Shown here: positions 12,394 to 47,709 of the stretch, one piece after another
How the letters are laid out: every line of letters starts with the position of its first letter
Position numbering within the stretch: position 1 is the stretch's first letter
Origin: Roseomonas populi
GTDB lineage: Bacteria > Pseudomonadota > Alphaproteobacteria > Acetobacterales > Acetobacteraceae
Length of the DNA stretch: 64,000 bases
Assembly (NCBI RefSeq): GCF_024594815.1
Contig: NZ_JANJOU010000004.1
Coordinates: forward strand, 124,001 to 188,000
Reading direction: 5' to 3'
Made by a program: the position numbers and the translations under genes
Notes under the pieces: model-generated
Databases searched by the model: none
The model's input: only the letters and a program-made list of their open reading frames with translations
What the model was told of the DNA's origin: nothing

Positions 12394-12421
12394 CGCCCGA
12401 GAGAGCCCCCAGGGAATTCCA

Positions 12422-13108: not shown

Positions 13109-13119
13109 CAAGGAGCCCG

Positions 13120-30994: not shown

Positions 30995-32845
30995 ATGGCC
31001 CAGGCCCAATCTGCCGAGCCATTGCCGCTCGCCCTGTCCCCTGATCTTCTCGCCCGGTGGCCGCATCTGCCGGCCTTCTGGCCCGAGCTCAGCCAGGTGC
31101 CGCCCGGCATGGCCGGCGCCCTGACGGTGGTGGAGGAAGGGGGCGCGCCGGCCGCCGGCCCCGTGCTGCGCTTCTCCCTCGCGCCCTTCGCGCCGCCCCG
31201 CTTCGCCGGGCGCGATGCGCCGCCCCTCCTGCTGTCGGACGGCGCTCCGCCCCTGGCCGATGGCGAGGCGGAGGCCCTGGCGGCACTGATCGTGCGCGCC
31301 CGGCTGGGCGGTGCGCCGGGCCTGCCGGATCCGGGAGGTGCCGCCTTCGGCCTGGGCGCGCGGGCGGCCGCGCTGGTGCTGGACCCCTGCGACCCCGCCA
31401 ACGCCGCCGGGGCGCTGGCGGCGCTGGCGGCGGCGCGCTCCTCGGGCCTGCCCGTGCTGGTGGCGCGCGATCCCTTCGCCGGCCGGGCTGCCGCGCCCGT
31501 GCTGGCCACCTCAGCCGCGTTGCCGGGCGTGAGGAGCCTGCCGCAGCCCCTCTCCCCCTGGACGCTGCTGGACGCCGCGGCGCGGCTGCACGGCGCGGGG
31601 CCCTTAATGGCCGCGCTGGCCGAGGCCGCCGGGGTGCCGCATGACCGGCCGGGCGCGCATCTGCAGCCGCTTCTCGCCCGCCTGCGCGCCGCCGATCCCT
31701 TTCGCCGCCGCCCCTGGAGCCGGGCGGAAGGTCTGGCCCTGCTGGCGGACTGGGTGGCAGCGGAGCGGGCAAATCGCGGCGTCTCGGCCTGCATCGGGAT
31801 CGCGCGCTGGAAGCGGCGGCAGGTGGCCGCGCTGCTGGCGCATGAGGGCGGCTCCCCGGCCTTCGAGCGCAGCCCCGCCCGCGCCGCCCGGCGCGCGGTG
31901 GCGGAGGGCGGGGCGGTGGTCGCCTGGGCGGCCTCCCTCTCCGATGCGGGGGCGGCCGCTATCCGGGGGGGCGGGGTGCCGGTGCAACTGCTGGAGGACG
32001 GGTTCATCCGCTCCCGCGGGCTGGGGGCGCGCTTCCTTCCCGGAGCGTCCTACAGTCTCGATGCGCGCGGGGCCTATTACGACCCGCGCCAGCCATCGTC
32101 CCTGGAGATGATCCTGAAGGAAGGGGCGTTCCCGCCCGATCTGCTGGCCCGCGCGGCGGCGCTCCGGAAGGCGGTCGTGGCGCGCGGCATCTCCAAGTAC
32201 AACCTGCGGAGCGAGGCGGCGCTGCCGGACCTTCCGGAAGGGCGGCGCAAGGTGCTGGTGCCCGGGCAGGTAGCGGATGACGCCTCCGTGCGCCTCGGTG
32301 GCGGGGCCATCCGCTCCAACCTCGACCTGCTGCGGGCCGTGCGGGCGGCGGAGCCCGAGGCCTTCATCCTCTACAAGCCGCATCCCGACCTGGAGGCCGG
32401 CTTCCGCCGGGGGCGGCTGCGGGCGGCGGAACTGGCGGGGCTGGCGGACGCGGTGGTGGGCGGCGTGCCGCTTCCCGCCCTGCTGCCGGAGGTGGACGCG
32501 CTGCACACCATGACCTCCCTCTCAGGCTTCGAGGCGCTGCTGCGCGGCGTGCCCGTGACCTGCTGGGGGCAACCCTTCTATGCCGGCTGGGGGCTGACGG
32601 AGGACCGCGCGCCCCTGCCGCCAGGGCGCCGCGGCGTGGCCCGCGCGCTGGACGAGCTGGTAGCCGCCGCCCTCATCCTCTACCCGCGCTACCTGGACCC
32701 GGTGACGCTGCTGCCCTGCCCGCCGGAGGTGATGCTGGACAGGCTGGAGCAGCCGGAGGCCTGGCGGATCTCCCCCCTCACCATCCACCGCGGGATGGAA
32801 GGCTGGGTGCGCGGGCTGCTGGCCCGGATCGGGGGGCGGCGGTGA
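30995..32845 (+). CDS. kpsC: KpsC-like capsule beta-Kdo transferase
   Basis: The 616-aa protein has a well-conserved C-terminal half: LLEDGFIRSRGLGARFLPG, LDARGAYYDPRQPS, SNLDLL, FILYKPHPDLEAG, and DALHTMTSLSGFEALLRGVP followed by VTCWGQPFYAGWGLTED. These are hallmarks of KpsC glycosyltransferase modules. The N-terminal half (about 1-230) is Ala/Gly-rich with only traces of the first module (LSPWTLLDAAARLHG), whereas canonical KpsC carries two active modules. KpsC and KpsS build the poly-beta-Kdo linker on a lipid in group 2 capsules. The ATG has only a weak ribosome site. Confidence 0.87.
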   Translation: MAQAQSAEPLPLALSPDLLARWPHLPAFWPELSQVPPGMAGALTVVEEGGAPAAGPVLRFSLAPFAPPRFAGRDAPPLLLSDGAPPLADGEAEALAALIVRARLGGAPGLPDPGGAAFGLGARAAALVLDPCDPANAAGALAALAAARSSGLPVLVARDPFAGRAAAPVLATSAALPGVRSLPQPLSPWTLLDAAARLHGAGPLMAALAEAAGVPHDRPGAHLQPLLARLRAADPFRRRPWSRAEGLALLADWVAAERANRGVSACIGIARWKRRQVAALLAHEGGSPAFERSPARAARRAVAEGGAVVAWAASLSDAGAAAIRGGGVPVQLLEDGFIRSRGLGARFLPGASYSLDARGAYYDPRQPSSLEMILKEGAFPPDLLARAAALRKAVVARGISKYNLRSEAALPDLPEGRRKVLVPGQVADDASVRLGGGAIRSNLDLLRAVRAAEPEAFILYKPHPDLEAGFRRGRLRAAELAGLADAVVGGVPLPALLPEVDALHTMTSLSGFEALLRGVPVTCWGQPFYAGWGLTEDRAPLPPGRRGVARALDELVAAALILYPRYLDPVTLLPCPPEVMLDRLEQPEAWRISPLTIHRGMEGWVRGLLARIGGRR

Positions 32846-32905: not shown

Positions 32906-34168
32906 TCAGAGCAGGACGGGAGGCGGATCCACGACCGGCTTGTTGATCAGCCCGTTGTGCAGCCGCTGCGCCGCAGCCTCCACGGCCGCGTCCAAGCCCG
33001 GGCGCGCGTAGTACACGCCGCGCAGGTGCAGGCAGTGGGCGATGCCGCGCAGGAAGGCTTCCCGCAGCTCGGGTTCCGGGGGGCGCCCCTTCGTCCAGAA
33101 GCTGTCCATCGGGCCTTCGTGCACCAGGCCCGGGATCTTGTAGATGGCGTCGCCCAGGGCAAGCGTGGGCAGGTGGTCCAGGATGGCGCGCAGGCCGACG
33201 GTGCTGTTGATCGTCACCACGCCCTGCACGCTCTCGGTAATGGCGCCGAGATTGCCGCCACCGAGGTAGTGGACGCGATCGGAGACCTTCGCCCGCTCGG
33301 CGATGCGGCGCACGCGGCGGCGCCAGTTCTTCATCGCGGGGTCCAATGGGTGGACCTTGACGAGGAGCTGCGCGTCCGGCGGCGCGTGGGCGGCGAAAGA
33401 GCGCGTCACCTCGTCGATCGCGGTGTCGAGGTCGGGGTATGCGGAGTAGGCACGGACGGAGAAGTCCGTCTCCATCTGCATGGCCATGAGGAAGAGCGGC
33501 CCGCGCCCCTGCAGCCGCGCCATGATGCCGTTCGCCTCCCGGTTGGCGCGCCGCCGCGTCAGGATCCGGGAGAGGGTGCCGAGATAGACCTGGATGGGAT
33601 GATAGATCTGGTGGCTGCGGTAGTGCCGGAAGAAGCCCGGCAGCAGCGAGACCAAGTGGTAGGTCACGTCCATCGTGGCCTGCTTGCGGAAGCTGTCCCG
33701 GTAGCGCTCCCCGATGTCGGGCGGGGGGAGTGTCTCGGCCAGGGCGATGATGGCGGCGGGGTCGCGCGGGAATTTGCTCTCGCGGTTCAGCCCGTCGTGC
33801 TCGAAGACGATCCAGTCCGGGCGGAGATAGCCGAAATCGGTGGCCACCACGGCGATGCCGCGCGCCCGGGCCGCGGCGATGGCCTCCCGGTGGTAGAAGC
33901 GCTGCTCGCCGAGGAGAAGGATGTCGGTGATGCCCCGCTCGTCCAGGAAGCGCGCGATGAAGGCCGGCCAGTCCTCCGGCCGGCCCCGGTAATCCATCAC
34001 CTCGCCGCCGCGCCAGAAGAGCTTGTCGCCGAGGCAGAGGTTGATCCGGTGCACGCCGTGCCCCAGCGCGCGGAGTCGCGCGCCGAGCAGTGGGAAGAAG
34101 AGGCTGATCGGGCCCTGCAGGAACAGGAACTGCCGTCCCTTCCGGGTGTTCGTCGCGTCCTCGGGCAC
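32906..34168 (-). CDS. kpsS: KpsS/RkpJ-like capsule Kdo-transferase family protein
   Basis: The 420-aa protein has the KpsS opening FLFLQGPISLFFPLLGARLR, then FHYR-like spacing (LLLGEQRFYHREAI) and VVATDFGYLRPDWI. LLVKVHPLDPAMKNW and GVVTINSTVGLRAILDHLP follow, with the HPLD and NSTVG motifs typical of the family. KpsS adds the first Kdo to the lipid acceptor in group 2 capsules, and rkpJ is the rhizobial counterpart. I place the start at GTG 34168, which has GGAG five bases upstream. A TTG at 34276 overlapping the previous stop (TTGA) is the alternative. It ends the PKS operon and converges on kpsC. Confidence 0.88.
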   Translation of the reverse strand: MPEDATNTRKGRQFLFLQGPISLFFPLLGARLRALGHGVHRINLCLGDKLFWRGGEVMDYRGRPEDWPAFIARFLDERGITDILLLGEQRFYHREAIAAARARGIAVVATDFGYLRPDWIVFEHDGLNRESKFPRDPAAIIALAETLPPPDIGERYRDSFRKQATMDVTYHLVSLLPGFFRHYRSHQIYHPIQVYLGTLSRILTRRRANREANGIMARLQGRGPLFLMAMQMETDFSVRAYSAYPDLDTAIDEVTRSFAAHAPPDAQLLVKVHPLDPAMKNWRRRVRRIAERAKVSDRVHYLGGGNLGAITESVQGVVTINSTVGLRAILDHLPTLALGDAIYKIPGLVHEGPMDSFWTKGRPPEPELREAFLRGIAHCLHLRGVYYARPGLDAAVEAAAQRLHNGLINKPVVDPPPVLL

Positions 34169-34272
34169 CTTTGCTCCATATGCAGGAGCGTCGGGGGGCG
34201 CAATGGCATGGGTGAGCGGGGCTGGGGTGCTGGCCGCCGCCGGCCGGGCGGCCCCGATGTGCCCCGCGGGTC

Positions 34273-35085
34273 TCAAGCCCGTGTTTGCAGGGCCGCGCGG
34301 ATATCCGCCGCGTCCAGCAGCCGCACCCCGCGCCGGCGCGCGGCGCGCAGGGCCGCACGGTCCGGGAAGGGGCAGTAGGGCAGCGGCACCCCGGCCGGCG
34401 ACTCCGCCGCCGCGCCGGCCGCGAGCGCGGCCAGCACCTCCCCGATGAGGGGCACCGCCGCCCGGTGCAGGTGCCGCGCGGCGGCCGAGGCGGTGATGCC
34501 CGGCGGCAGGGCGACGACGCGCTGCGCGAGGACCGGCCCGGCATCGATTCGCGGCACGAGGCGATGGACGGTGACGCCGTGGGCGGGCTCCGCCTCCATC
34601 CCCGCCCAGAAGGTCGGAATCGGGCCGCGGTGCCGGGGCAGGAGGGAGGGGTGGACGTTGATGCCGCCCATCGGCGCCACGGCGATGGTGGCGGCGGAGA
34701 GGATGCCGTCGAAGTGGAAGGTCAGGATCAGGTCCGGCCGGGCCGCGCGCAGCGCGGCGTGGAAGGCGGGGCCGTTGACGTCCTCCACCACGGCCACGGG
34801 AATGCCCCCCGCGCGCGCCAGGGCGGCGAGCGATCCCGCGCCCCGCGCCAGCGCCCCCGCCAGCCGGGGCAGGGCCATGTTCACCGCGAGATAGCCGAGC
34901 ATCCCCGGCCCGGAGCGGCGGAAGTGCCGCCAGGCCTGGCCCAGCAGGCCCCCGGCCGAGCGGCGATACGGGTTGGAGAGGCCGAGCAGGACCACCTGCC
35001 CGCCATGGAGGCCCAGGAACTCCGAGACCGCCTCGCTGCTCGCGGCGCTGCCGAGGGTGAGGAGGGCGACGCGGAGCGGTGTCAG
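34273..35085 (-). CDS. Formyltransferase-family protein with a probable CTG start
   Basis: The formyltransferase domain carries the full catalytic set: Asn and His in GGINVHPSLLPRHRGPIP and Asp in RIDAGPVLAQR. Members use 10-formyltetrahydrofolate to N-formylate an amine. The frame begins with a GTG at 34995. However, the upstream in-frame codons encode LRVALLTLGSAASSEAVSEF, a perfect first strand-loop-helix for this fold, back to a CTG at 35085 that overlaps the previous stop (CTGA). I prefer that start, giving about 270 aa. Sitting between an oxoamine synthase and KpsS, it probably formylates the amino-lipid or an amino sugar. Confidence 0.78.
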   Translation of the reverse strand: MTPLRVALLTLGSAASSEAVSEFLGLHGGQVVLLGLSNPYRRSAGGLLGQAWRHFRRSGPGMLGYLAVNMALPRLAGALARGAGSLAALARAGGIPVAVVEDVNGPAFHAALRAARPDLILTFHFDGILSAATIAVAPMGGINVHPSLLPRHRGPIPTFWAGMEAEPAHGVTVHRLVPRIDAGPVLAQRVVALPPGITASAAARHLHRAAVPLIGEVLAALAAGAAAESPAGVPLPYCPFPDRAALRAARRRGVRLLDAADIRAALQTRA

Positions 35086-36398
35086 CCCGCCACCTCGGCC
35101 GGCGCGATGCCCGCCGCGGTCTCCGCCACGATGTCCAGGGTCCGGTCCACCTGCGCCTCGGTATGGCCGGCGGTGAGGAAGAAGCGGAGCCGCGCGGCGC
35201 GCTCCGGCACGGCGGGGAAGGTGATGGGCTGCACGTTCACGCCGCGCGCGAAGAGCTCCGCCGAGAGGCGCCCGGCGCGGACGGAGGAGCCGGTCATCAG
35301 CGGCACGATGGCGTGCCCGCCGGAGGCGCCGGCATCCAGCCCGCGCGCCCGCAGCCCGTCCCGGAACCGGGCGGCGTTGGCGTTCAGCTTTGCTACCCGC
35401 CAGGGCTCCTCGTGCAGGATCTGGAGCGACTGGAGGGCGGAGGCCGCGAGCACGGGGGCGAGGCCGACGGAGTAGACGAAGCCCGGCGCCGTGTGGCGCA
35501 GCCAGTTGATGAGCTGGCGCTTGGCCGCGATGTAGCCGCCGCAGGAGCAGAGCGTCTTGGAGAGCGTGCCCATCCAGATGTCCACGCCCGCTGGGTCCAC
35601 GCCCTGCAGCTCCGCAATGCCGTGGCCGGTCGCGCCGAGCACGCCCATCGAATGGGCCTCGTCCACCATCAGCCAGGCGTCGTGGCGGCGGGCGATCTCG
35701 ATGAAGCGAGCGAGATCCGGCACGTCGCCGTCCATGGAGTAGTGGCCCTCGATGAGGATGAGGGCCCGGCCGGCGCCGCGGCGCGCGGCGGCCAGCTCCC
35801 GCTCGGCCGCGGCGGGATCGTTGTGGGCGAAGGGGATGCGGCGGGCGCCGGAGAGGCGTGCGCCCTCCACGCAGGAGTTGTGGATCATCGCGTCGTGCAG
35901 GATCACGTCGCGCGGGCCCATCAGGTGCCCGATCACCGTCACGTTGGTGGCGTGGCCGGAGACAAGGCAGATCGCGTCCTCCGCGCCGTAATGCGTGGCC
36001 AGCGCGGCCTCCAGCTCCGCGTGCAGCGGCCTCTCGCCGGAGACGACGCGGGAGGCGGAGGCGGAGATGCCGTGGCGCTCGATCGCGGCGTGGGCGGCGG
36101 CCTTCACGCGCGGGTCGTTGTTGAGGTCCAGGTAGTTGTAGGACGAGAAGTTCAGGTACTCGTCATTTCCGATGACCGTGGTGGCGCCGGCCACGCCCTG
36201 GTGCGGGCGGAAGAAGGGGTTGGGGAGGTCGAGCGCCTCCATCGCCGTCTTCAGCAGCTCGAAGTCGCGCAGCGCCGGCACGTCCCCGAAGGACCGCCCG
36301 TCGCCGGCGCCGCTCTCCTCCTGCCGCGCACGGCGCTTGGAAAGGCGCTGCAGCAGCGCCAGGCGCGCGGTGGCGGAAAGGCCGAGGCCCTGGTTCAA
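35082..36398 (-). CDS. rkpG: Alpha-oxoamine synthase (RkpG/serine-palmitoyltransferase/AONS-like)
   Basis: The 438-aa PLP enzyme has MVDEAHSMGVLG (PLP-ring and pyridine-N contacts) and the Schiff-base Lys in GTLSKTLCSCGGYIA (about residue 275). SSYNYLDLNNDPRV and HGISASASRVVSGE are family signatures. These enzymes condense an acyl thioester with an amino acid, losing CO2, to give an amino ketone. An N-terminal extension of about 45 residues precedes the core. It starts at a TTG with GGAG eight bases upstream, 39 bases after the PKS stop. This order mirrors rkpA-rkpG of Sinorhizobium, suggesting release of the PKS chain as a sphingoid-like base. Confidence 0.9.
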   Translation of the reverse strand: MNQGLGLSATARLALLQRLSKRRARQEESGAGDGRSFGDVPALRDFELLKTAMEALDLPNPFFRPHQGVAGATTVIGNDEYLNFSSYNYLDLNNDPRVKAAAHAAIERHGISASASRVVSGERPLHAELEAALATHYGAEDAICLVSGHATNVTVIGHLMGPRDVILHDAMIHNSCVEGARLSGARRIPFAHNDPAAAERELAAARRGAGRALILIEGHYSMDGDVPDLARFIEIARRHDAWLMVDEAHSMGVLGATGHGIAELQGVDPAGVDIWMGTLSKTLCSCGGYIAAKRQLINWLRHTAPGFVYSVGLAPVLAASALQSLQILHEEPWRVAKLNANAARFRDGLRARGLDAGASGGHAIVPLMTGSSVRAGRLSAELFARGVNVQPITFPAVPERAARLRFFLTAGHTEAQVDRTLDIVAETAAGIAPAEVAG

Positions 36399-36437
36399 GC
36401 GCGTATCTCCATGACGGGCAGTCCCGGCCGGGCCAAT

Positions 36438-39400
36438 TTAGGTGGCGCCCGCCTTGTCCGGTAGGGTCGCCGCATCGGCCGGCGTGGGCTCCGGCGTCAG
36501 CGTGTCGGGGCCGGGCCCGGCCGAGCCCGGCTCGAAGTGGCCGAGGAGGGAGTCCAGCTGGGCCTCCCGCGCCCCGCCGGACAGGCCCTCCACCATGCGC
36601 GCGGCCAGGCCCGCCACGGTGAGGTCCTCCGTCACGGCGGAAAGGGGCACGGCCATGCCGAGCCGCGCCTCCAGCGCCCCGCGCAGCTCCAACCCGCCAA
36701 GGCTGTCTAGGCCGAGGCGCGCCACGGGCACGTCGGCGCCGATGCTCTCGGGCGGCAGGCGCAGGATCCGGCCCAGCTCCTCCGCGCCGATGCGGGTCAG
36801 CAGGGCCTGGGCCTCCGCCGGGGGCAGCGCCATGAGGTGGACGCGCATGTCGGCGATGTCGGCGTCCGTCTCCTCCGCCCGGCCGCGCAGGGCGGCGAAG
36901 GCGGGCTCGCGCAGCACCGGCAGGGCCGCGCCCGCGCGCTTCCAGGCCACGCGGGCGAGGGAGACGACGGGGTGGCCCGCGGCGATGAGGCCGGGCAGGG
37001 TGTCCAGCGCCTCGCGCGCCGCCATCGGCTCCACGCCCAGGCGGCGGGCGAGGGTGCGGGCCGTCTCGGCCTCCCGCGCCAGGATGCCGGCATCGGCGAT
37101 GGGGCCCCAGCCGACGGCGAGCGCTGGGCGGCCCCGCGCGCGGCGGCGGCGGGCCAGGGCCTCCAGCGCCGCGTTGGCGGCCACGTAGTTCGCCTGGCCG
37201 GGATTGCCGAAGGCCGTGGTGGCCGAGGAGAAAAGGAGGAAGAGGTCCAGCGGGTCCTCGGCCGTCAGCCGGTCCAGGTTCTCCGCCGCCACGAGCTTTG
37301 GGGCGAGGAGGGCGGCGAAGCGGGCGGCATCCATGGAGCCGGCCGCGCCGTCGTCGAAGACGGTCGCGGCGTGGACCACGCCGGTGAGGGGGCCTTCCTC
37401 CCTCAGCTCCGTCAGCAGGGCGGCGAGGGCGGGGCGGCTGGAGACGTCCACCGCGTGCAGGCTGGCCCGCGCGCCGAGGGCGGCCAGCGCCGTCACGGCC
37501 TCCCCCGCGCCCGGCGTGGCCGGGCCGCGGCGGGAGACGAGGGCGAGGCGCTGCGCCCCGTGGGCCGCCAGCCACTTGGCGCATTCCAGCCCGAAGCCTG
37601 AGGTACCGCCCGTGACGAGGATCGTGCCGCCGCGCCGGGGCGACCAGGCGGCGGGGCGCGGCCCCTCCTCGCGCGGGGGCAGCACGATGATCTTGCCGAT
37701 ATGGCCGCTGGCCTGGAGGAGCCGGAAGGCGCCCTCCGCGTCCTCCGCCGCGCGGCGGGCATAGGGCAGGGGCCGGAAATCGCCGGAGGCGAGGCGGCCG
37801 CGGATGGATTCCAGCAGTCGCGCCGCCTCGGCGGGCCGGGCCTTGGGCAGCTGGTCCACGTCCACGCCGAAATAGGTGACGTTGCGGCGGAAGGGGCGCA
37901 CGGCGATGCGCCGGTCCTCCGCATAGTCGCGCTTGCCGAGCTCGATGAAGCGGCCGAAGGGCTTCACCAGGGCGATGGAGCGCTCCATCGCCTCCCCCGC
38001 GAGCGAGTTCAGGACCACGTCCACGCCGTCCGGCCAGTGGCGGCGAAGTGCGTCGTCGAAGCCGCTGGCGCGGCTGTCCAGCACGAGGTCGGCGCCGGCC
38101 GCGCGCAGGAAGGCGCGCTTGGCCTCCGTGCCTGCCGTCATCGCCACCTGGGCGCCGGAGGCCTGGGCCACCTGCAGGGCGGCGAGCCCCACCGCGCCGG
38201 CACCGCCATGGATCAGTACGCGCTCACCGGGCGCGATCCCCGCGCAGGTCTCCAGCGCGTAGACGGCGGTGAGGAAGGCGACGGGGATGGTGGCGGCGGC
38301 GGTGGAGGTCAGCCCCTCCGGGATCGGGGCCAGCGCCTCGGCGCGGGTGAGGACCTGGCCAGCCAGGGCCCGCGGGGCGAAGCCGAACACGCGGGTGCCG
38401 GAATGGAAGGGCACGCCGGGCCCGGCCTCCATCACCACGCCCGCGCACTCCATGCCGAGGCCGGCGCCGGCGAAGCCGTCCTTCAGCGTCTCCTCCGGCA
38501 GCAGGCCCTGGGCCCACATCAGGTCGCGGAAGTTCAGCCCGGCGGCTTCCACGCGCACCCGCACCTCGCCGGGGCCGGGGGCGGGCAGGGGCTCCATCGG
38601 CTCCCAGGCGAGGGAGGCGAGGGCGCCGGGCTGGCGCACCGCCAGCCTTGCCGCCGGGCCGGGCTGGGGCGGGCGGCAGGCCTGGCCATGGAGAGATCCG
38701 TGCACCAAGCCCTCCTGAGCGATGCGCGGCACGCGGCGGCTGGAGAGGCCGAGCAGGATCTCCGGCTCCGCATTCGGCGACAGCAGCTCCGGCAGGAGGC
38801 GGTGGGCGGCGGCGGCGGGGGCCAGGGCGGCGTCCACCAGGATGCGCCGGGGCGCCAGTTCCGGCATCTCGTTGGCCAGGACCCGGCCGAGGGCGCGCAC
38901 GGCCTCGGCCGCCGCGGCGGTCCCGTTGCCCTGGGCGACGAGGGTGAAGCCCGCGCTGGCGCCCGAGGCGACGGCCGCCAGCTTCACGATGCCGGCGAGG
39001 CTGGTAGCGAGAGGCGCCGCCTCGGCCGGGCCGGCCGGGTTGGTGACGGCGACCACCGACGCGCCCCGCAGCGCGCGGGGCGGCAGGGCGGAGGCGTCCT
39101 CCAGCCGGTGGCTTTCCACCACGGCGCCCGCCTTGGAGAGGGCGGCGGCCAGCGCCTCGCCCAGCGGCGCGGCGCCCGCATCGGGAAGGAGGATGAGGCG
39201 CTGCCCCGACCGGGCAGCCGGGATGACGGGGGCCGGGGCGGGGCGCTGGGCCGCGATGAGGAGGGCGGGCCATGGCGAGGACCGGAGCGGCTCCGCCCGC
39301 GGCGCGGACCATCCCTCCGCGGCCAGGATGTCGCGCCATGCGGCGGCGTTCGGCAGGGCGGGGAGGGACCAGCTGTGCGGAGCCTGGCCGCGCACGAAGT

Positions 39401-42400
39401 CCACCACGCGGCCAGGCACCGGCTCCACCATCAGGAGGGTGCCGCCCTCGGCCAGGGCGGCGGCGAGGCCGGGCAGGACGCCGGTGCCGGCCTCCCCGCT
39501 GAGGCCGGGGTGCAGGCCGACGACGAGGTCGGCGACGACGGGCGGCGGGGCGCCGGTGGCGGGGTTCCAGTCCACCGTCACCACTTCCGCCATGGACTGG
39601 GCGGGCGGGGCGGGGCGGGTCTCGCCCGCCAGCAGGTGCAGGACGCGGCGGCCGGAGCGGACGAGGCCCGCCGAGAGGTGGCGGGTGAGGGCGGCGGGGC
39701 CCAGATCGAGCACGCGCAGCGGCCGGTCGGCCGGCCAGGCCGCGGCGATCGCGGCGGCGGCATCGGCCACCACCTGGGCCAGCCGGTCGAAGGCGCCCGA
39801 TTCCTCGGGCAGCCGGGAGCGGACGGCATCCTGCGGCAGGTGGCCCGCCAGGGCATCGGGCAGCCGCTCCGCTGCCTGCGCGATCATGGCCAGGTCCTGG
39901 GCCAGGGCGGGCCGCTCGATGAGGATGGAGCGCCAGATGTCCTCGGGCGCCGGCAGGTCCCCGGTGGGCAGCAGGCGCCAGCCCCCGCCCTCGGCGGCCG
40001 CGAGGCCGTCCTCCTCCAGCGCGCGCAGCATCGAGACGGCATAGGGGGTGGAAGGCTGGATCACGCCGTCCCCACCGGCCGCGAAGGCGCGGGCGGTGGC
40101 GGAGGCGACATAGCCCTCCAGCAGCAGCGCGTACTCGGAAAGGTCGAGGGATTCGTCGCGCGTGCCGGCGGCCACCAGGGCGAGGTCCAGCGCGCGGCCC
40201 TGGTCGGGGGCGGGCAGGAAGGGGTCGAGGGCGGGCTGATCCTCCAGCCGGAAGGCGGAGGCCTCCGCGGCCTCGGCCCGGCCCAGCCGGGCGCGCTGGA
40301 ACCAGACCCCTTCCGCCACCGCCACGGCACGGCCGGCCGTGTCGCCGAGAACCAGCCGGGCCTCCGCCGCGCGGCTGCCTGCATGGGTGAGGGCGAGGGC
40401 GGCGCGGGTGGCCGGGGCGGCGCCCCGGCGCAGCACCAGCCGCTCGAAGCGGACCGGGACCAGCGCGTCACCGGGGACTTCGCCCAGGCGCTCCATGCCG
40501 TGGCCGTCCCTGGCGCGGTCCATGGCGCCGCGGTCGGTCAGCAGGCCGATCAGGCCCTGCATCGCGCCGTCCAGCCGCACGGGGTGGAGGAGGAAGTCGT
40601 CATCCTCCGGAGCCTCGGCCGGCAGGTCCAGCGCGACCTCCGCCGCACCGCCCCTGGGATCGAGGAGGACATGCTGGACCGGGCGGAAGGCCGGGCCGTA
40701 GTCCAGGCCGCAGCGGGCGGCCACGGCGTGCAGCGCGGGCTCGGCGACCTGTCGGCCGCCCTCCGGCGCGTGGGGGAGCTCCGGCAAGGCCTCCGCCGTC
40801 GCCGGGCGCAGCAGGCCGCGGGCGTGCAGGGACCAGGCCTCGCCGCTCATCCGGCGGCGGGATTCCAGGCGGAAGGTGCCGTCATCGGCCAGGCGGAAGC
40901 GGACTTCCTGGCTGCCGCCCTCCCGGTCCCCGGGCGGCACGGGCAGGGGGCGCAGGATCTGGAAGGCCGAAAGCTCCAGCGCCTCCGCCTCCGGGAAGCG
41001 GCGGGCGGCGGCGGCGAGCGCCATCTCCGCCATTCCGGCGGCGGGCATCACCGCCTCCTCGCCCAGCCGGTGGTCGGCCAGCCAGGGCAGCAGCGCGGCG
41101 TCCACCTGGCGGGTCCAGTGGGCAAAGCCCTCCGCCGGGTCGGAATCCCGACGGAAGCCGAGCAGCGGGTGGTCCAGCACGGGGTCGTGCAGCCGATGGG
41201 ATTCCGGGGTGGCCGGGAACCAGTGGCGCCGGCGGACATAGGGGGTGGGCGGCAGGCCGCGCCGCCGCGCCGGGCCCGCATAGGCGGCCGCCCCGCGCGG
41301 ATCGGCGCCCATGGCCGCGGCGCGATCAGCGATGCCGGGAATGGGATTGCCCGGCGCGTCGCGCTTGGAGAGGCTGGCGAGGATCGGCGCCTCCGCCTTC
41401 GCGGCGCGCAGCGCCTCCCGCAGGTAGGATTGCAGGATGGGGTGGGCGCCGATCTCGATCACTGGCCGCGCACCGCGCCGCCCGGCCTCGGCCGCCGCAT
41501 CGGCGAAGCGCACGGGGGCGCGCAGGTTGCGCCACCAGTAGCCGGCGTCCGCCGGCTCCTCCAGCAGGGCGCCGGTGACGGTGGAGAGGAAGGGCAGGCG
41601 CGGGGCGGCGGGGCGCAGCCCGGCCAGGGATTCGCGCAGCACCCCCTCCACCTCGTCCATGGCGGCGGAGTGGAAGGCGTAGTCCAGGTCCAGCGGGATG
41701 ACCGTGTGCCGGTCCCGCTTCGCGGCGGCGACGAGGCGGGCGATGGCCTCCGCGGGGCCGGCGACGGTGAGGGCGCGGGGCGCGTTGCGGGCGGCGATCT
41801 CCAGCCCCGGCCCGCATTCGGCGAGGAGGGGCAGCGCCTCCTCCTCGGAGGTGTTGAGGGCGGCCATGCGGCCCTTGCCCCGCGTGCGCGCCTGGGCGGC
41901 GGAGCGGGCGACGATGAGGCGGGCGGCCGCGGGCATGTCCAGGATGCCGGCCGCGAGCGCCGCGGCCACCTCGCCCACGGAGTGGCCGAGCACGAGGGAG
42001 GGGACGATGCCCTCCTCCGCCAGGGCGGCGACGAGCCCGTGCTGCACGGCGAAGAGGGCGGGCTGGGCGACATCGGTGGCGGCCAGGGCCTCGGCGGTCA
42101 GGCCATCGGCCAGGGCGGCGGCGACGGACCAGCCCAGGTGCGGGGCCAGCTCGGCATCCGCCGCCTCCACCGCCTGCCGGAAGGGGCGGGAATGGGCCAT
42201 CGCCTCCCGCGCCATGCCCGGGAACTGGGATCCGTTGCCGGAGAAGGCGAAGGCGGGGCCGGGGCCCGGTGCCGCCGGCGCGGTGCCTTGGATCCCGGCG
42301 GGCTCGCCCTCCGCGAAGGAATCGAGCCCATCGGCGAGGGCGGCGGCGTCGCCGCGCAGCACCAGGCGGTGGGGATGCAGGTCGCGGTGGCGGGCCAGGC

Positions 42401-43907
42401 CGCGCAGCAGCGCGGGGGCGGCCTCCGGCGCGGCGCGCAGGGCGGCGGACCAGGCGCGGGCGGCGACCGGCAGTGCCTCGGAGGAGCGGGCGGAGAGAAT
42501 GAGGGGCGGGAGGGAGGCTCCCTCTGGCGCCGCCGGCGCGCCGGGCCGGGCGCGGGCGGCCCGCTTCGCCTCGGGCGGCGCGGCGAGCATGAGGGAGGCA
42601 TTGGTGCCGCCGAAGCCGAAGGAGTTCACCCCGATCACGGGCGCGCGGCCCGGCAGCGGCTCCGGCGCCACCGGCACGCGGATGTTGAGGGTGGCGAAGT
42701 CGATCTTCGGGTTCGGGTCCCCGAAGTGCAGGTTCGGCGGGATCACCCGCCTCTCCAGCATCAGCAGGGCCTTGATGAGCCCGGCCATGCCGGAGGCGGT
42801 CTCCAGGTGGCCGATGTTGGACTTCACCGAGCCGACGGGCAGCGGGGCCTCTCGTCCGCCCGCCGCCAGCACGCCCCCGATGGCGCTGGCCTCCACCGGG
42901 TCGCCCGCCTGGGTGCCGGTGCCGTGCGCCTCGAAGTAGCTCACCTCGGCCGGGGAGAGGCCGGCCTCGTCCAGGACGCGGCGGATCAGGGCGGCCTGGG
43001 CCTGCGGGTCGGGCAGGGAGAGGCCGATGGAGCGGCCCACCGCGTTCACCCCGGCGGCGAGGATGACGCCGCGGATCTCGTCCCCGTCCGCCAGCGCGGC
43101 CGGGAGGGGCTTGAGCACGACCATGCCCGCGCCCTCGCCGCGCACGTAGCCGTCCGCCATCGCGGAGAAAACGTGGCAGCGCCCGCTGGGTGAGAGCATG
43201 GAGGCACGGGAGAAGCCGGTGAAGGCGTAGGGCGAGAGGAGGAGCTGCACGCCGCCCACCAGCGCCGCCTCCACCCGCCCGGCGCGCAGCGCGTCCACGG
43301 CGTGGGCGAGGGCGACGAGGGAGGAGGAGCAGGCGGTGTCGATCGTCTGCGCCCCGCCGCGCAGGTCGAAGACGTTGGTGATCCGGTTCCCCAGGATGGA
43401 GAGGGTGTTGCCGGTCATGAAGTAGCGGTCGGCGCCCGAGGGGTCCGACAGGCGCAGCTCGGCGTAGTCGGTGGAGGAGCCGCCGACGAAGACCCCGATC
43501 TCCCGCCCGGCGACGGAGGCGGCGGGCCAGCCCGCATCCTCCAGCGCCTCGGACGCCACCTCCAGCAGCAGGCGCTGCTGCGGGTCCGCCTCCGCCACCT
43601 CCCGCGGGGAGAGGCCGAAATGCGCGGGATCGAAGCCGGAGATGTCGCCGAGATGGCCGGCGGCGAAGGTGTAGGACCGGCCGGGCTCGCTGCGGTTGGG
43701 GTGGTAGAACCACTCCTGGCTGAAGCGGCCCGCGGGCAGGGTGGAGACGGCATCCCGCCCCTCGGCGAGGAGGGACCAGAAGGAGTCCAGGTTCGGGCCG
43801 CCGGGAAAGCGGCAGGCGGCGCCGACCACCGCGATCGGCTCCCCACCCGCGGGCCGCCTGGCGCCCCTGCTGCTTTCCAGGGGGCGGGGCGGTTGCTTGC
43901 GGTTCAC
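36438..43907 (-). CDS. rkpA: Fully reducing type I polyketide/fatty-acid synthase (RkpA-like)
   Basis: The 2489-aa megasynthase starts at GTG 43907, overlapping the GT4 stop (GTGA). Domains in order: KS (about 20-440; DTACSSS, EAHGTGT, NIGHLE), AT (about 545-860; GHSVGE, YAFH), DH (about 910-1190; DHRLGEEAVMP, DGAMQ), a degenerate methyltransferase-like segment (about 1380-1550; VLDLGPAAL), structural KR, ER (about 1755-2020; HGGAGAVGLAALQ), KR (about 2090-2270; VTGGTSGFG, PGQANYVAAN) and ACP (Ser in LGLDSLGG, about 2402). There is no thioesterase, so the chain is presumably released by the adjacent oxoamine synthase. A saturated long acyl chain is predicted. Confidence 0.93.
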   Translation of the reverse strand: MNRKQPPRPLESSRGARRPAGGEPIAVVGAACRFPGGPNLDSFWSLLAEGRDAVSTLPAGRFSQEWFYHPNRSEPGRSYTFAAGHLGDISGFDPAHFGLSPREVAEADPQQRLLLEVASEALEDAGWPAASVAGREIGVFVGGSSTDYAELRLSDPSGADRYFMTGNTLSILGNRITNVFDLRGGAQTIDTACSSSLVALAHAVDALRAGRVEAALVGGVQLLLSPYAFTGFSRASMLSPSGRCHVFSAMADGYVRGEGAGMVVLKPLPAALADGDEIRGVILAAGVNAVGRSIGLSLPDPQAQAALIRRVLDEAGLSPAEVSYFEAHGTGTQAGDPVEASAIGGVLAAGGREAPLPVGSVKSNIGHLETASGMAGLIKALLMLERRVIPPNLHFGDPNPKIDFATLNIRVPVAPEPLPGRAPVIGVNSFGFGGTNASLMLAAPPEAKRAARARPGAPAAPEGASLPPLILSARSSEALPVAARAWSAALRAAPEAAPALLRGLARHRDLHPHRLVLRGDAAALADGLDSFAEGEPAGIQGTAPAAPGPGPAFAFSGNGSQFPGMAREAMAHSRPFRQAVEAADAELAPHLGWSVAAALADGLTAEALAATDVAQPALFAVQHGLVAALAEEGIVPSLVLGHSVGEVAAALAAGILDMPAAARLIVARSAAQARTRGKGRMAALNTSEEEALPLLAECGPGLEIAARNAPRALTVAGPAEAIARLVAAAKRDRHTVIPLDLDYAFHSAAMDEVEGVLRESLAGLRPAAPRLPFLSTVTGALLEEPADAGYWWRNLRAPVRFADAAAEAGRRGARPVIEIGAHPILQSYLREALRAAKAEAPILASLSKRDAPGNPIPGIADRAAAMGADPRGAAAYAGPARRRGLPPTPYVRRRHWFPATPESHRLHDPVLDHPLLGFRRDSDPAEGFAHWTRQVDAALLPWLADHRLGEEAVMPAAGMAEMALAAAARRFPEAEALELSAFQILRPLPVPPGDREGGSQEVRFRLADDGTFRLESRRRMSGEAWSLHARGLLRPATAEALPELPHAPEGGRQVAEPALHAVAARCGLDYGPAFRPVQHVLLDPRGGAAEVALDLPAEAPEDDDFLLHPVRLDGAMQGLIGLLTDRGAMDRARDGHGMERLGEVPGDALVPVRFERLVLRRGAAPATRAALALTHAGSRAAEARLVLGDTAGRAVAVAEGVWFQRARLGRAEAAEASAFRLEDQPALDPFLPAPDQGRALDLALVAAGTRDESLDLSEYALLLEGYVASATARAFAAGGDGVIQPSTPYAVSMLRALEEDGLAAAEGGGWRLLPTGDLPAPEDIWRSILIERPALAQDLAMIAQAAERLPDALAGHLPQDAVRSRLPEESGAFDRLAQVVADAAAAIAAAWPADRPLRVLDLGPAALTRHLSAGLVRSGRRVLHLLAGETRPAPPAQSMAEVVTVDWNPATGAPPPVVADLVVGLHPGLSGEAGTGVLPGLAAALAEGGTLLMVEPVPGRVVDFVRGQAPHSWSLPALPNAAAWRDILAAEGWSAPRAEPLRSSPWPALLIAAQRPAPAPVIPAARSGQRLILLPDAGAAPLGEALAAALSKAGAVVESHRLEDASALPPRALRGASVVAVTNPAGPAEAAPLATSLAGIVKLAAVASGASAGFTLVAQGNGTAAAAEAVRALGRVLANEMPELAPRRILVDAALAPAAAAHRLLPELLSPNAEPEILLGLSSRRVPRIAQEGLVHGSLHGQACRPPQPGPAARLAVRQPGALASLAWEPMEPLPAPGPGEVRVRVEAAGLNFRDLMWAQGLLPEETLKDGFAGAGLGMECAGVVMEAGPGVPFHSGTRVFGFAPRALAGQVLTRAEALAPIPEGLTSTAAATIPVAFLTAVYALETCAGIAPGERVLIHGGAGAVGLAALQVAQASGAQVAMTAGTEAKRAFLRAAGADLVLDSRASGFDDALRRHWPDGVDVVLNSLAGEAMERSIALVKPFGRFIELGKRDYAEDRRIAVRPFRRNVTYFGVDVDQLPKARPAEAARLLESIRGRLASGDFRPLPYARRAAEDAEGAFRLLQASGHIGKIIVLPPREEGPRPAAWSPRRGGTILVTGGTSGFGLECAKWLAAHGAQRLALVSRRGPATPGAGEAVTALAALGARASLHAVDVSSRPALAALLTELREEGPLTGVVHAATVFDDGAAGSMDAARFAALLAPKLVAAENLDRLTAEDPLDLFLLFSSATTAFGNPGQANYVAANAALEALARRRRARGRPALAVGWGPIADAGILAREAETARTLARRLGVEPMAAREALDTLPGLIAAGHPVVSLARVAWKRAGAALPVLREPAFAALRGRAEETDADIADMRVHLMALPPAEAQALLTRIGAEELGRILRLPPESIGADVPVARLGLDSLGGLELRGALEARLGMAVPLSAVTEDLTVAGLAARMVEGLSGGAREAQLDSLLGHFEPGSAGPGPDTLTPEPTPADAATLPDKAGAT

Positions 43908-45262
43908 GTCGGGCCCGTGGTGCGGGAGTGGTTGAGAGCGGCCCGGGGGCGCACCGCGCGCGGGCGCAGCCAGGCCGGCAGGGTGGCCCGGAGGAAGTGG
44001 GCGCGCTTCGAGCGGCGGGTCAGGTGCGCCAGCACCTCGTCCACCCGGGCGAAGTGCTCGTCCCAGCGCGGCGCGCGCCAGCCGGAGAGGCGGGAGAGCT
44101 GGTCCGCGCGGGCCGGGCTGTCCGGGCGCATGTAGTCGAGTATCGCGGCCCGCCAGGAGACGCCGTCCAGCGGGTCCAGGTAGTCCGGCACCTCGCCGCC
44201 GACCTCGCGCAGGGCGGGCAGGTCGGAGCAGATGGCGGGAACGCCCAGCGCCAGCGCCTCGGCCAGCGGCAGGCCGTAGCCTTCCGCGAAGGACGGGAAG
44301 AGGAGGGCGCGGGCGCCGCGCAGGATCTCCCACACCTCGCGGTCCGGCACCTGGCCGACCTCGCGCACCGTGCCGCGGAGCGCGTCGCAGCGCTCCAGGA
44401 TGTCCACCACGTTCTCGTTCTCCCAGCCGCGGCGGCCGACGACGAGGAGGTGGGGCGTGCGCTGGCCCATGCGCCGGGCCAGGTCTCGCCAGAGGTGGAG
44501 AAGCAGGAGGTGGTTCTTGCGCGGCTCGATGGTGCCGAGCACGACGAAGTAGGGCTCCGCCGGCAGGGCGGGGGCCGGGGCCGGGGGCGGCTCGATCCCC
44601 AGGGGGGCCACCATGACGGGCGGCGGGATCTCCCGCACCCGCAGGTGGGGGCGCAGCGCCGCCTCCGTGTCGGCGGAGTTGACGATGATGGCGTCCGCCA
44701 GCGCCGCGGTGGTGGCGATGCGCCGGAGGTGCCGCTCCGCCTGGCCGGGGCGGGCGTATTCCGGGTGGGTCGCGGGGATCAGGTCGTGGATCAGAGGGAC
44801 GAAGGCGCAGCCCGCGTCGCGCATCAGCTGGATCGGCCGGTCCCGCTCCAGGGCGCGGTGGGAGACGAGGAGGAAGACCTTCGGATCCGGCTGCCGGAGG
44901 CGCCGGACCAGCTCCCGCTGGCCGAGCCCGGCCATGACGCGCCAGCGGAGGCTGGCGGAGAGCCGGCGGGCACGGGTGGCCGCTCCGCCGCCCGGATCAT
45001 TGTGCCCCCAGGCGCGCGCGAGGATGGCCACGTAGCCGACCACGGCGCGCCAGGGCAGGGCCACGTAATCGCCCGCCAGGGCCTGGGCGACGAAGGTGCA
45101 GCTCCCCTCCGGCATGGCCGCCCAGCGGCGGGCATAGGCCATTTCGACCCGGTCGATCCCGGATGGAGCGACCTTCCCGCTGCAGGCGAGCAGGCGGGAG
45201 ATGTCGAGCACGATATGATGCGCCGCATGCGGCGGCCGATCCGCCGGTCGGACCTCGGGCAT
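43904..45262 (-). CDS. GT4-family glycosyltransferase
   Basis: The 452-aa enzyme has a GT-B fold pattern with FVVLGTIEPRKNHLLLLHLW, LLVVGRRGWENENVV and the C-terminal SFAEGYGLPLAEALALGVPA with ICSDLPALREVGG. This EGYGLPLxEA motif is the GT4 nucleotide-sugar site. The ATG at 45262 is preceded by AGGAA eight bases upstream; an upstream GTG at 45316 looks less likely. It is the first gene of the PKS operon and couples to the PKS by a four-base overlap, so it may glycosylate the PKS-derived lipid or start the capsule chain. The acceptor is not shown. Confidence 0.87.
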   Translation of the reverse strand: MPEVRPADRPPHAAHHIVLDISRLLACSGKVAPSGIDRVEMAYARRWAAMPEGSCTFVAQALAGDYVALPWRAVVGYVAILARAWGHNDPGGGAATRARRLSASLRWRVMAGLGQRELVRRLRQPDPKVFLLVSHRALERDRPIQLMRDAGCAFVPLIHDLIPATHPEYARPGQAERHLRRIATTAALADAIIVNSADTEAALRPHLRVREIPPPVMVAPLGIEPPPAPAPALPAEPYFVVLGTIEPRKNHLLLLHLWRDLARRMGQRTPHLLVVGRRGWENENVVDILERCDALRGTVREVGQVPDREVWEILRGARALLFPSFAEGYGLPLAEALALGVPAICSDLPALREVGGEVPDYLDPLDGVSWRAAILDYMRPDSPARADQLSRLSGWRAPRWDEHFARVDEVLAHLTRRSKRAHFLRATLPAWLRPRAVRPRAALNHSRTTGPT

Positions 45263-45472: not shown

Positions 45473-45604
45473 GTAATCTCGTTATTTTGCCGTTTTGTTT
45501 TTGCTTCCCATCGTTCGAGCCGCCGCTCGAGGGTGCCTCGGGCCAGCCCTGGCGGCGCGCGACGTCACGGGCCATCCTAGTTCCCGCCCATGAGGAAAGC
45601 ACGA

Positions 45605-46375
45605 ATGGCGGACGCGGCAGAACGGCGAATCCTCATCACCGGGGCATCCAGCGGGATCGGTGCGGCGACGGCGCGGGCCATGGCGGGGCCGGGCACGGCG
45701 ATCGCGGTGCATTGCCGGGGCAACCGGGCCGGGGCCGAGGCCGTGGCGGCCGATCTGCGCGCCGGCGGGGCGAGGGCCCTGGTGCTGATGGGCGACCTGA
45801 CGGAGCCGGAGACGCCCGCGCGGCTGGTGGCGGAGGCCGTGGTGGCTTTCGGCGGGCTGGAGGTGGTGGTGGCCAATGCGGGCTTCGCCGACCGCACCCA
45901 GATGGGCGCGATGACGGATGAGGGCTTCGCCCGCAGCGCCGACACCATCCTCTGGGGTTTCATGCGGCTGGCGCGGGCGGCGGGCCCGCACCTGCTGCGC
46001 GCCGGAGAGGCGGGGGGCGGGGCGCGGATGGTCGCCGTCTCCTCCTTCGTGGCGCACCTGTTCCGCACGGACGCCGCGACCTTCCCCGCCAGCGCGGCGG
46101 CGAAGGCGGGCGTGGAAGCCCTGGTGCGGTCGCTAGCGATCGAGTGGGCGCCGCATGTCACGGTGAACACCGTGGTGCCGGGCTTCACCCAAAAGGACCC
46201 GGGAACCCATGTGGCGCTGGAGGCGCCGGCCTGGGAGGCGATCCTGGCCCGGATCCCGCTGCGGCGCCTGGGCCAGCCGGCGGACGTGGCGGCGGCGGTG
46301 GCCTTCCTGGCCGGGCCGGGCGGCGCCTACATCACCGGGCAGGCACTGCACGTCAGCGGCGGCGTGGTGATCTAG
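45605..46375 (+). CDS. SDR-family oxidoreductase with catalytic Tyr replaced
   Basis: The 256-aa protein has the Rossmann loop ITGASSGIGAATA, NAGF, the Ser strand MVAVSSFVAH and a C-terminal GGVVI of FabG-like SDRs. The usual YxxxK reads SAAAK (in TFPASAAAKAGVEAL), so the catalytic Tyr is Ser while the Lys remains. It could be a non-catalytic or altered enzyme. ATG 45605 is preferred over ATG 45590 because AGGAAAG lies six bases before it. It converges on the PobA-like gene with one base between stops. The substrate is unknown. Confidence 0.82.
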   Translation: MADAAERRILITGASSGIGAATARAMAGPGTAIAVHCRGNRAGAEAVAADLRAGGARALVLMGDLTEPETPARLVAEAVVAFGGLEVVVANAGFADRTQMGAMTDEGFARSADTILWGFMRLARAAGPHLLRAGEAGGGARMVAVSSFVAHLFRTDAATFPASAAAKAGVEALVRSLAIEWAPHVTVNTVVPGFTQKDPGTHVALEAPAWEAILARIPLRRLGQPADVAAAVAFLAGPGGAYITGQALHVSGGVVI

Positions 46376-46376
46376 G

Positions 46377-47576
46377 TCAGGCCTCCAGGGGCAGGCCGAC
46401 GTAGTTCTCGGCCAGGGCCGCCTGGGCATTGCGGGAGCCGGCTAGGAAGTCCAGGTCGGCCATGCGGATGCGCTGCTCGAAAGGACTCTCGGCCGCGTCC
46501 ACGTGCAGCATGGTGGTCATCATCCAGCTGAAGCGCTCAGCCTTCCAGACCCGGCGCAGGGCGGTGGCGGGGTAGGAGTCCAGGCCGGACTCGTCGTTGC
46601 GGCGGATCGCGGCTTCCAACGCGCGGGAGAGGACGAGGACATCGGCCACTGCCAGGTTGAGGCCCTTGGCGCCGGTGGGCGGGACGATGTGGGCGGCATC
46701 GCCGGCCAGGAAGAGACGGCCGTGGCGCATCGTCTCGCAGACGAAGCTGCGGAGGGGGATGATGCCCTTCTGGAAGATCTGTCCCTCCGCCAGCCTCCAG
46801 CTGCCGGCCGTCTCGAGGCGGCGGTGGAGCGCGGCCCAGATGCGCTCGTCCGGCCAGTTGGCGATGTCGTCGCGCGGGTCGCACTGGATGTAGAGGCGCT
46901 GGATTTCCGGCGTGCGGGTGGTGAGGAGCGCGAAGCCCTCCTCGTGCCGGGCGTAGATCAGCTCGTGCCAGGAGAGGGGGGCATGGGCGAGGACGCCGAG
47001 CCAGCCGAAGGGGTAGGTGCGGTCGTACTCCCGGCGGTCCGCAGCGGGGATGGCGCGGCGGCCGGGGCCATGAAAGCCGTCGGCGCCGACGACGTAGTCG
47101 CAGGCCAACTCGTCCGGCGTGCCGTCCGGGTGGCGGAAGGTGATCCGTGGCCGGTCCGTGTCGATGTCCTGGAACGCGGTCTCGGAGACGCCGAAATGGA
47201 TGGTGCCGCCATCGGCCAGGCGGGGAGCGATGAGGTCGATCAGGACCTCGTGCTGGGGATAGAGGGTGACGCGCTTGCCGCCGGTGAGCTCCGCCAGGGG
47301 CAGGTGGAAGCGCGTGGCACCGTACTGCAGGGTGATGCCGTCATGCGCGTGGCCCTCCTGCGCCATGCGGTCGCCCAGGCCCATGTCGCGCATCAGCTCC
47401 GTCACCCAGTGCTCCAGCAAGCCGGCGCGGATCGTGCCCTCCACCGCCTCGCGCGTGCGGTTCTCCACGATGACGCTCTCGATGCCCGCGCGGTGGAGGA
47501 GATGGGCGAGGAAAAGGCCGGCGGGGCCGCAGCCGACGATTCCGACCTGGGTGCGCGTGGCGTTCCGCTGGGACAT
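46377..47576 (-). CDS. pobA: 4-hydroxybenzoate 3-monooxygenase-like flavoprotein
   Basis: The 399-aa enzyme has the FAD loop VGIVGCGPAGLFLAHLLHRA, EGTIRAGLLEH, TLYPQHEVLIDLI, a DG motif (YVVGADGFHGPGRR) and FLAGDAAHIVPPTGAKGLNL, all matching PobA. PobA uses NADPH and O2 to convert 4-hydroxybenzoate to protocatechuate in the cytoplasm. Usual neighbours (pobR, pca genes) are absent, and the divergent gene is an enoyl-CoA hydratase. Length equals that of characterised PobA (about 390-395). Family assignment is firm; an aromatic acid relative as substrate is possible. Confidence 0.9.
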   Translation of the reverse strand: MSQRNATRTQVGIVGCGPAGLFLAHLLHRAGIESVIVENRTREAVEGTIRAGLLEHWVTELMRDMGLGDRMAQEGHAHDGITLQYGATRFHLPLAELTGGKRVTLYPQHEVLIDLIAPRLADGGTIHFGVSETAFQDIDTDRPRITFRHPDGTPDELACDYVVGADGFHGPGRRAIPAADRREYDRTYPFGWLGVLAHAPLSWHELIYARHEEGFALLTTRTPEIQRLYIQCDPRDDIANWPDERIWAALHRRLETAGSWRLAEGQIFQKGIIPLRSFVCETMRHGRLFLAGDAAHIVPPTGAKGLNLAVADVLVLSRALEAAIRRNDESGLDSYPATALRRVWKAERFSWMMTTMLHVDAAESPFEQRIRMADLDFLAGSRNAQAALAENYVGLPLEA

Positions 47577-47709
47577 TCCGGACCTGTGGTTCTGGCTTGG
47601 ACGATCGTTGGATATCGAACCATTCCCCGCCGCGGCAAGGGAGGGCGGGGCCAGCTTGCGGGGGCGGGGGCGGCGCGGCAAGACGGGGGCAAGGCATGGA
47701 GGAGCGCCG

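Follow-up and report, generated by a model that had tools for sequence, protein, structure and literature searches.

Several described systems share parts with an operon in a 64,000-nucleotide stretch of the 5.87-Mb Roseomonas populi genome (C35:124001-188000, contig NZ_JANJOU010000004.1), hereafter the window. On its minus strand, between positions 32906 and 45262, genes for a GT4 glycosyltransferase, a polyketide synthase (PKS), an alpha-oxoamine synthase (AOS), a predicted formyltransferase (FT) and a KpsS-like protein follow one another in that order. In Pseudomonas fluorescens MYb115, SgaA, a PKS, and SgaB, an AOS that uses serine almost exclusively, give rise to sphinganines and phosphoglycerol sphingolipids, and 6,101 PKS/AOS clusters have been counted (PMC12134224, excerpts). 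In bacterial ceramide synthesis by Spt, bCerS and CerR, the long-chain base from an AOS-family serine palmitoyltransferase (SPT) is then N-acylated, a step proposed to precede reduction (PMC11087976, PMC11334938, excerpts). The capsule loci rkp-1 of Sinorhizobium and wcb of Burkholderia contain a large PKS-type gene, rkpA/wcbR, and the rkp-1 products are said to make a lipid carrier (PMC4881576, PMC7902896, PMC3908369, excerpts). For capsules that leave the cell by ABC export, no more than a few species have a defined lipid terminus (PMC5126122, excerpts). Lastly, a 2021 survey includes, under the name "alpha-group", a type-1 PKS cluster of unknown product that contains a formyltransferase (PMC8776678, excerpts).

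We consider it probable, from gene content and comparison across genomes, that the operon builds a sphingoid lipid dedicated to the capsule: FT would N-formylate the base made by PKS and AOS, and this base would be the lipid terminus of the capsule. More tentatively, and as close to an even call, we propose that the capsule is anchored on this formamide-capped, single-chain N-formyl sphingoid lipid and that lineages toggle between N-formyl and N-acyl forms by a one-gene swap in the same slot.

Co-occurrence of the formyltransferase and the oxoamine synthase

An initial reading of the window from its letters (the sequence-only reading) had proposed that PKS and AOS lead to an N-capped amino lipid, and had suggested a search of genomes for adjacency of the genes. 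The proposal is backed by the dependence of FT on AOS, by the exchange of FT with an N-acyltransferase and by the PKS-plus-AOS sphinganines known elsewhere. In a family survey of 299 genomes, with AOS counted at 1e-100, FT and AOS occur together in 58, FT alone in one, AOS alone in 39 and neither in 201 (59 with FT and 97 with AOS in total; Fisher p ~2e-34, though the genomes are not independent). A larger-scale reading covered 33 of the 59 FT genomes: in 27 of their loci FT follows AOS with no other matched gene in between, and the other six have AOS elsewhere in the same genome. Among named genomes, the best 80 of 551 FT matches were kept, so that distant members of the FT family are uncounted; these genomes are partly also in the family set, and the two counts overlap. 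AOS lies inside the fetched stretch in 47 of the 80 loci, and there the adjacency holds throughout, with FT directly the next matched gene in 47/47 (39 co-directional, 8 inverted). In the other 33, AOS lies outside the fetched stretch and is encoded in every genome (33/33). Because FT is almost never found without AOS, and AOS is often found without FT, FT looks like a tailoring enzyme that acts on the AOS product.

Some copies of FT have other neighbours. In five metagenome-assembled genomes (L157, L158, L159, L161, L164) an FT ~60% identical to that of the window stands beside a FabG-like short-chain dehydrogenase/reductase (SDR), with AOS encoded elsewhere in the genomes. FT is paired in L200 and L205 with a GT4 ~50% identical to the window's, AOS not being nearby, and in G652 and G575 a protein 27-30% identical to FT lies beside an SDR and a GT4, with no AOS within 20 kb, the limit of the search there.

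Exchange of the formyltransferase with an N-acyltransferase

Clusters with AOS and no FT were examined in 29 of the 39 AOS-only genomes (leaving out G042, G096, G123, G128, G162, G195, G215, G217, G231 and G247). In 17 of these 29, the gene after AOS encodes a predicted tandem-GNAT N-acyltransferase, and this GNAT was found in none of 120 FT loci (0/120). Only its absence from FT loci tests exclusion, because the FT-less loci had been chosen for lacking FT. FT clusters and GNAT clusters interleave on the AOS tree, with at least nine changes between them. AOS pieces shorter than 250 residues or below 150 bits were omitted from the tree, and a hand list aimed at second contig copies dropped 26 locus ids; FT rows are under-counted because some dropped loci (L170, L187, L189) are not otherwise in the tree.

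The replacing GNAT has a tandem GNAT fold by fold search; it obtained nothing from NCBIfam, no sequence relative in the PDB and a weak Pfam match in only one of four proteins. It is bCerS-like in belonging to a GNAT-fold acyltransferase family that occurs in an SPT locus, including that of Roseomonas mucosa, and it is 35% identical to the GNAT of the genome's ordinary SPT locus. We presume a resemblance to the characterised Caulobacter bCerS as well. The sphingolipid-locus GNAT on the R. mucosa plasmid CP099472.1 (L267:11817-12974) is annotated as "dATP pyrophosphohydrolase", probably a misannotation.

Genes of the operon

The operon coordinates and gene order of the sequence-only reading were confirmed by open reading frames (ORFs), codon composition, Pfam and translations. 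GT4 (43904-45262, minus strand, ATG at 45262; Pfam Glycos_transf_1, 2.5e-17) is the first gene, and sits upstream of PKS in many relatives too. Its stop overlaps the PKS start by four bases, GTGA at 43907-43904, as had been noted. The PKS (36438-43907, minus strand, 2489 aa) is by Pfam a monomodular, fully reducing type I enzyme with ketosynthase (KS), acyltransferase (AT), dehydratase (DH), enoylreductase (ER), ketoreductase (KR) and acyl carrier protein (ACP) domains. Its active-site motifs are intact (KS Cys/His/His, AT GHSVGE, DH His/Asp, the NADPH motifs of ER and KR, ACP DSL). No thioesterase was found by Pfam or motif scan, in line with the sequence-only reading, which had also bracketed a methyltransferase domain in the PKS. 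That domain is at most a relic, because neither a Pfam match at E 0.01 nor S-adenosylmethionine motif I was found.

The AOS (35082-36398, minus strand) is SPT-like, with the pyridoxal phosphate (PLP) lysine in GTLSK (Pfam Aminotran_1_2, 6.8e-53). The window thus has the SgaAB-type pairing of a monomodular fully reducing PKS, free of thioesterase, beside a PLP-dependent AOS. All NCBIfam models remain under their cut-offs for this AOS, the best being bioF (2.8e-103) and the best SPT model reaching 287.4 of 640 bits; PDB relatives include Kbl (1fc4, 1.6e-63) and SPT (3a2b, 1.5e-62). A second AOS of the genome, on contig C24, is an SPT by NCBIfam (634.9 bits, cut-off 500). Contig C24 holds an ordinary sphingolipid locus (L147, L266), where SPT, ACP, LptF/LptG-like permeases and a GNAT lie within ~12 kb.

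The KpsS-like gene, which encodes a predicted 3-deoxy-D-manno-oct-2-ulosonic acid (Kdo) transferase, closes the operon (32906-34276, minus strand; Capsule_synth, 3.5e-70; NCBIfam KpsS model 181 bits, cut-off 600). Its start is uncertain, either TTG at 34276, which overlaps the FT stop, or GTG at 34168. Within rkp-1, rkpG is an AOS and rkpJ is KpsS-like, and clusters of the rkp-1/wcb kind are defined by a PKS, an AOS and a KpsS-like gene together; by this definition the window holds such a cluster. In the contig scan, Pararoseomonas indoligenes came out as the closest named relative of the locus (FT 87%, AOS 95%). The set GT4-PKS-AOS-FT-KpsS is not a chance arrangement, because it recurs across many genera.

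The formyltransferase

FT (34273-35085, minus strand, 270 aa) belongs to PF00551 by profile (Formyl_trans_N, 1.1e-18), catalytic residues and fold. The Asn/His/Asp set that the sequence-only reading had described as intact, Asn143, His145 and Asp181, is invariant in 26/26 aligned homologues. An AlphaFold2 model (pLDDT 91.8) resembles Fmt and ArnA in a fold search, and also HypX and the hydrolase domains of 10-formyl-tetrahydrofolate (THF) dehydrogenase. By sequence and fold the closest solved relatives include ArnA and the GDP-perosamine formyltransferase WbkC. FT shares with ArnA, WbkC and Fmt the fold and the Asn-His-Asp set; unlike them, it belongs over its full length to a separate family, marked by a YCPFP motif and a conserved helical hairpin of its own, and lies among lipid and capsule genes. 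Assignment to a named enzyme was rejected, as the full-length protein scores below the NCBIfam cut-offs for ArnA (91.1 of 777 bits), PRK06988 (103.5 of 316), Fmt (79.6 of 201.5) and the dTDP-sugar enzyme (29.7 of 238). Every score is likewise under its cut-off for the 240-aa mechanical ORF.

The probable start codon of FT is a CTG within CTGA (35085-35082), four bases that FT shares with the AOS stop; this overlap had been called probable and is present. A start scan covered 27 relatives, 24 of them with a readable start. Eight of the 24 (L092, L093, L094, L095, L099, L105, L107, L126) likewise have a CTG that shares four bases with the AOS stop, and for L092, L093, L095 and L126 among these no ATG, GTG or TTG candidate was listed; the remaining relatives have an ATG, GTG or TTG nearby.

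The same FT occurs with capsule genes in two Burkholderiaceae, L168 (Pararobbsia) and L171 (Paraburkholderia), the former also with PKS and AOS, which suggests that these copies of the cluster arose by horizontal transfer. A search of plasmids gave one Methylobacterium record that spans most of FT and carries no annotation; the other rows among the matches listed (15 of 54) are ArnA-type or unannotated core matches.

Capsule genes and other neighbours

A KpsC-like gene converges on KpsS (30995-32845, plus strand, start approximate; Capsule_synth, 4.8e-35); it has no NCBIfam match, and its name rests on size and position. On the minus strand follow a KpsM-like ABC-2 permease (29633-30463; ABC2_membrane, 1.5e-13; KpsM model 3.6e-37, under cut-off) and a KpsT-like ABC ATPase named by position (28964-29614; ABC_tran, 5.9e-14), for which the top NCBIfam models, below cut-off, describe different glycan-export ATPases. 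A KpsE/CtrB-like inner-membrane export protein (27808-29073, minus strand; TIGR01010, 3e-81, under cut-off) has its start probably inside the ORF, and an outer-membrane polysaccharide export (OPX) protein lies beside it (26064-27995, minus strand; Poly_export, 6.7e-16, with SLBB). By Pfam the gene set of an ABC-dependent capsule is present (KpsS, KpsC, KpsM, KpsT, KpsE, OPX-type), with every NCBIfam match under cut-off.

Two further partners recur in relatives. One is an SDR to which we give the provisional label KDSR-like. It adjoins FT in 29 of the best 80 named loci, particularly in Methylobacterium, and of four FT clusters fetched from the same genus as the window, three (L092, L094, L095) have it between KpsS and KpsC; its best match in the window genome, on contig C22, scores 218 bits and the runner-up 145. 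The other is a CDP-alcohol phosphatidyltransferase, which adjoins FT or AOS in several genera.

A FabG-like SDR and an FAD monooxygenase flank the operon (45590-48182); relatives did not show them in this position. The SDR (45590-46375) was rejected as a candidate ketosphinganine reductase, being FabG-like and absent from that place in relatives. Elsewhere in the window, an HMGL-like enzyme, a HAD hydrolase and a cytidylyltransferase lie in a row (10834-13818) and might together activate a keto-sugar for the glycan, and an APH-like phosphotransferase beside an NTP-transferase-like protein (14813-17271) recalls a choline-kinase/cytidylyltransferase pair.

A proposed pathway and its alternatives

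Gene content, intact motifs, the dependence of FT on AOS and its exchange with GNAT are observed; for all substrates, the order of the steps and the attachment to the capsule, we infer the following route. The iterative PKS would make a saturated acyl-ACP, and AOS would free the chain by joining it to an amino acid, by analogy serine, in a decarboxylative condensation that yields a 3-keto long-chain base. FT would move a formyl group from 10-formyl-THF to the amine of this base, filling the place held in sister operons by the ceramide-synthase-like GNAT N-acyltransferase. The ketone would be reduced by an SDR, whose gene is in the kps cluster of several relatives and whose closest gene here is on another contig. 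A headgroup would be added, perhaps by the CDP-alcohol phosphatidyltransferase in some lineages, KpsS and KpsC would place the Kdo linker on the lipid, and KpsMTE would export the chain. The formylation target is the strongest part of this route and the role as capsule anchor a weaker one; for a lipid that carries the capsule, KpsS in the operon and the adjoining KpsC-like and export genes are circumstantial evidence.

A sphingoid that bears phosphoglycerol would be similar to (lyso-)phosphatidylglycerol, the lipid to which KpsS adds Kdo (PMC7694667, excerpts). In Porphyromonas gingivalis, K-antigen is reduced in an SPT mutant, and a sphingolipid anchor was raised as a speculation by the authors of that work (PMC5126122, excerpts). 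Given the SgaAB products, the likeness to (lyso-)phosphatidylglycerol and this mutant, we think that the window operon likely makes a second, capsule-dedicated sphingoid lipid, the amine of which would be formylated where sister operons acylate it.

Several observations weigh against such a lipid. The lipid, its formyl product and the capsule linkage are predictions from genes, and the nearest solved or characterised kin of FT work on amino sugars or Met-tRNA. One family genome with FT gave no AOS (G012, 86% complete, with FT at a contig end), and 33 of the 80 named loci show no AOS in the fetched stretch; the stretches of L157, L158, L159, L161, L164, L200, L209 and L223 are without AOS, SDR, KpsS/KpsC and CDP-alcohol transferase. 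Twelve of the 29 FT-less clusters have neither FT nor GNAT right after AOS. The recurrent SDR has a generic SDR model as its best NCBIfam match, under cut-off, and the window operon holds neither this SDR nor the CDP-alcohol phosphatidyltransferase. The latter family had no match in the window genome, an empty answer that was obtained without a control and shows nothing alone.

The product of PKS, AOS and FT could also be a free metabolite, an N-formyl sphingolipid or aminoketone, that anchors no capsule, KpsS being merely a neighbour. The Pseudomonas SgaAB products are free sphinganines and phosphoglycerol lipids (PMC12134224, excerpts), and the 2021 survey handles its cluster as a metabolite cluster (PMC8776678, excerpts). 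Neither KpsS nor KpsC is in the fetched stretch of 15 of the 80 named FT loci, but one or the other is present in 65; many clusters have KpsS as the first matched gene behind FT or GNAT, and KpsC, KpsM, KpsT and KpsE often adjoin. We regard a free metabolite as unlikely, though credible.

Alternatively, FT might formylate an amino sugar of the capsule, as a sugar nucleotide or within the glycan, its place beside AOS being an operon convenience. ArnA and WbkC are among its closest solved relatives, N-formyl and N-acyl transferases of sugars likewise stand in for one another in nature, and six DegT-type matches in the genome (one weak) could supply amino sugars. None of the six is in the window, however, the nearest lying ~77 kb from FT, and the full-length protein does not reach the cut-offs for ArnA, Fmt or sugar formyltransferases. 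That FT tracks AOS (58/59 family genomes, 80/80 named loci) is not what a variable sugar would lead one to expect, and the replacing GNAT belongs to a family found in an SPT locus. An amino-sugar target therefore seems quite unlikely to us. Some other role, as a temporary formyl protecting group, a formyl-THF hydrolase or a formylase of the amino acid substrate, could draw on the instability of alpha-aminoketones and the fold likeness to 10-formyl-THF dehydrogenase and HypX, but is very improbable because a gene exchanged for an N-acyltransferase suggests that an N-acyl group is kept.

Comparison with known systems

An N-formyl sphingoid lipid made for the capsule, the reading we prefer, would be an unreported way of making the lipid that holds a bacterial capsule, by an operon of soil and plant bacteria. 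The gene cluster itself is not new: the 2021 survey cluster has the window's gene set of GT4, PKS without thioesterase, PLP enzyme, formyltransferase and capsular protein (PMC8776678, excerpts). The section of that survey on the cluster differs from our reading in proposing no sphingolipid, N-capping or GNAT exchange. The sequence-only reading knew of no described pathway with the formylation step, and no description of that step was found among the matches listed from open-licence literature (for one search, the first 20 of 126). The formyl step, the swap of FT and GNAT, and the link between sphingolipid and capsule with its anchor role appear to be new.

The likeness to rkp-1 and wcb, drawn by description only, is the large PKS-type gene in a capsule locus; no formyltransferase is named for these clusters in the excerpts of PMC4881576, PMC7902896 and PMC3908369, and the review PMC12220298 mentions neither rkp nor wcb. 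No settled role was found for the PKS and oxoamine synthase genes of rkp/wcb-type capsule loci. Our reading would link these genes to sphingolipid synthesis, and predicts an N-formyl lipid in some lineages and an N-acyl lipid in others. It also proposes a function for an orphan formyltransferase family of Roseomonas-type Acetobacteraceae, Methylobacterium and some Burkholderiaceae, and leads one to ask whether some of the 6,101 PKS/AOS clusters are capsule-lipid pathways.

SgaAB(C) comprises an iterative PKS with an adjacent AOS acting as SPT on a PKS-derived acyl chain, and a KDSR-like SDR (PMC12134224, excerpts). The main text of that paper has no word beginning with "formyl" or "capsul", and the window operon, unlike SgaAB(C), includes FT and KpsS. 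With Spt-bCerS-CerR, as described in excerpts of the reports cited above, the window operon has in common an AOS-family enzyme followed by N-capping of a long-chain base, whereas a formyl group would take the place of the acyl group and a PKS that of the ordinary acyl donor.
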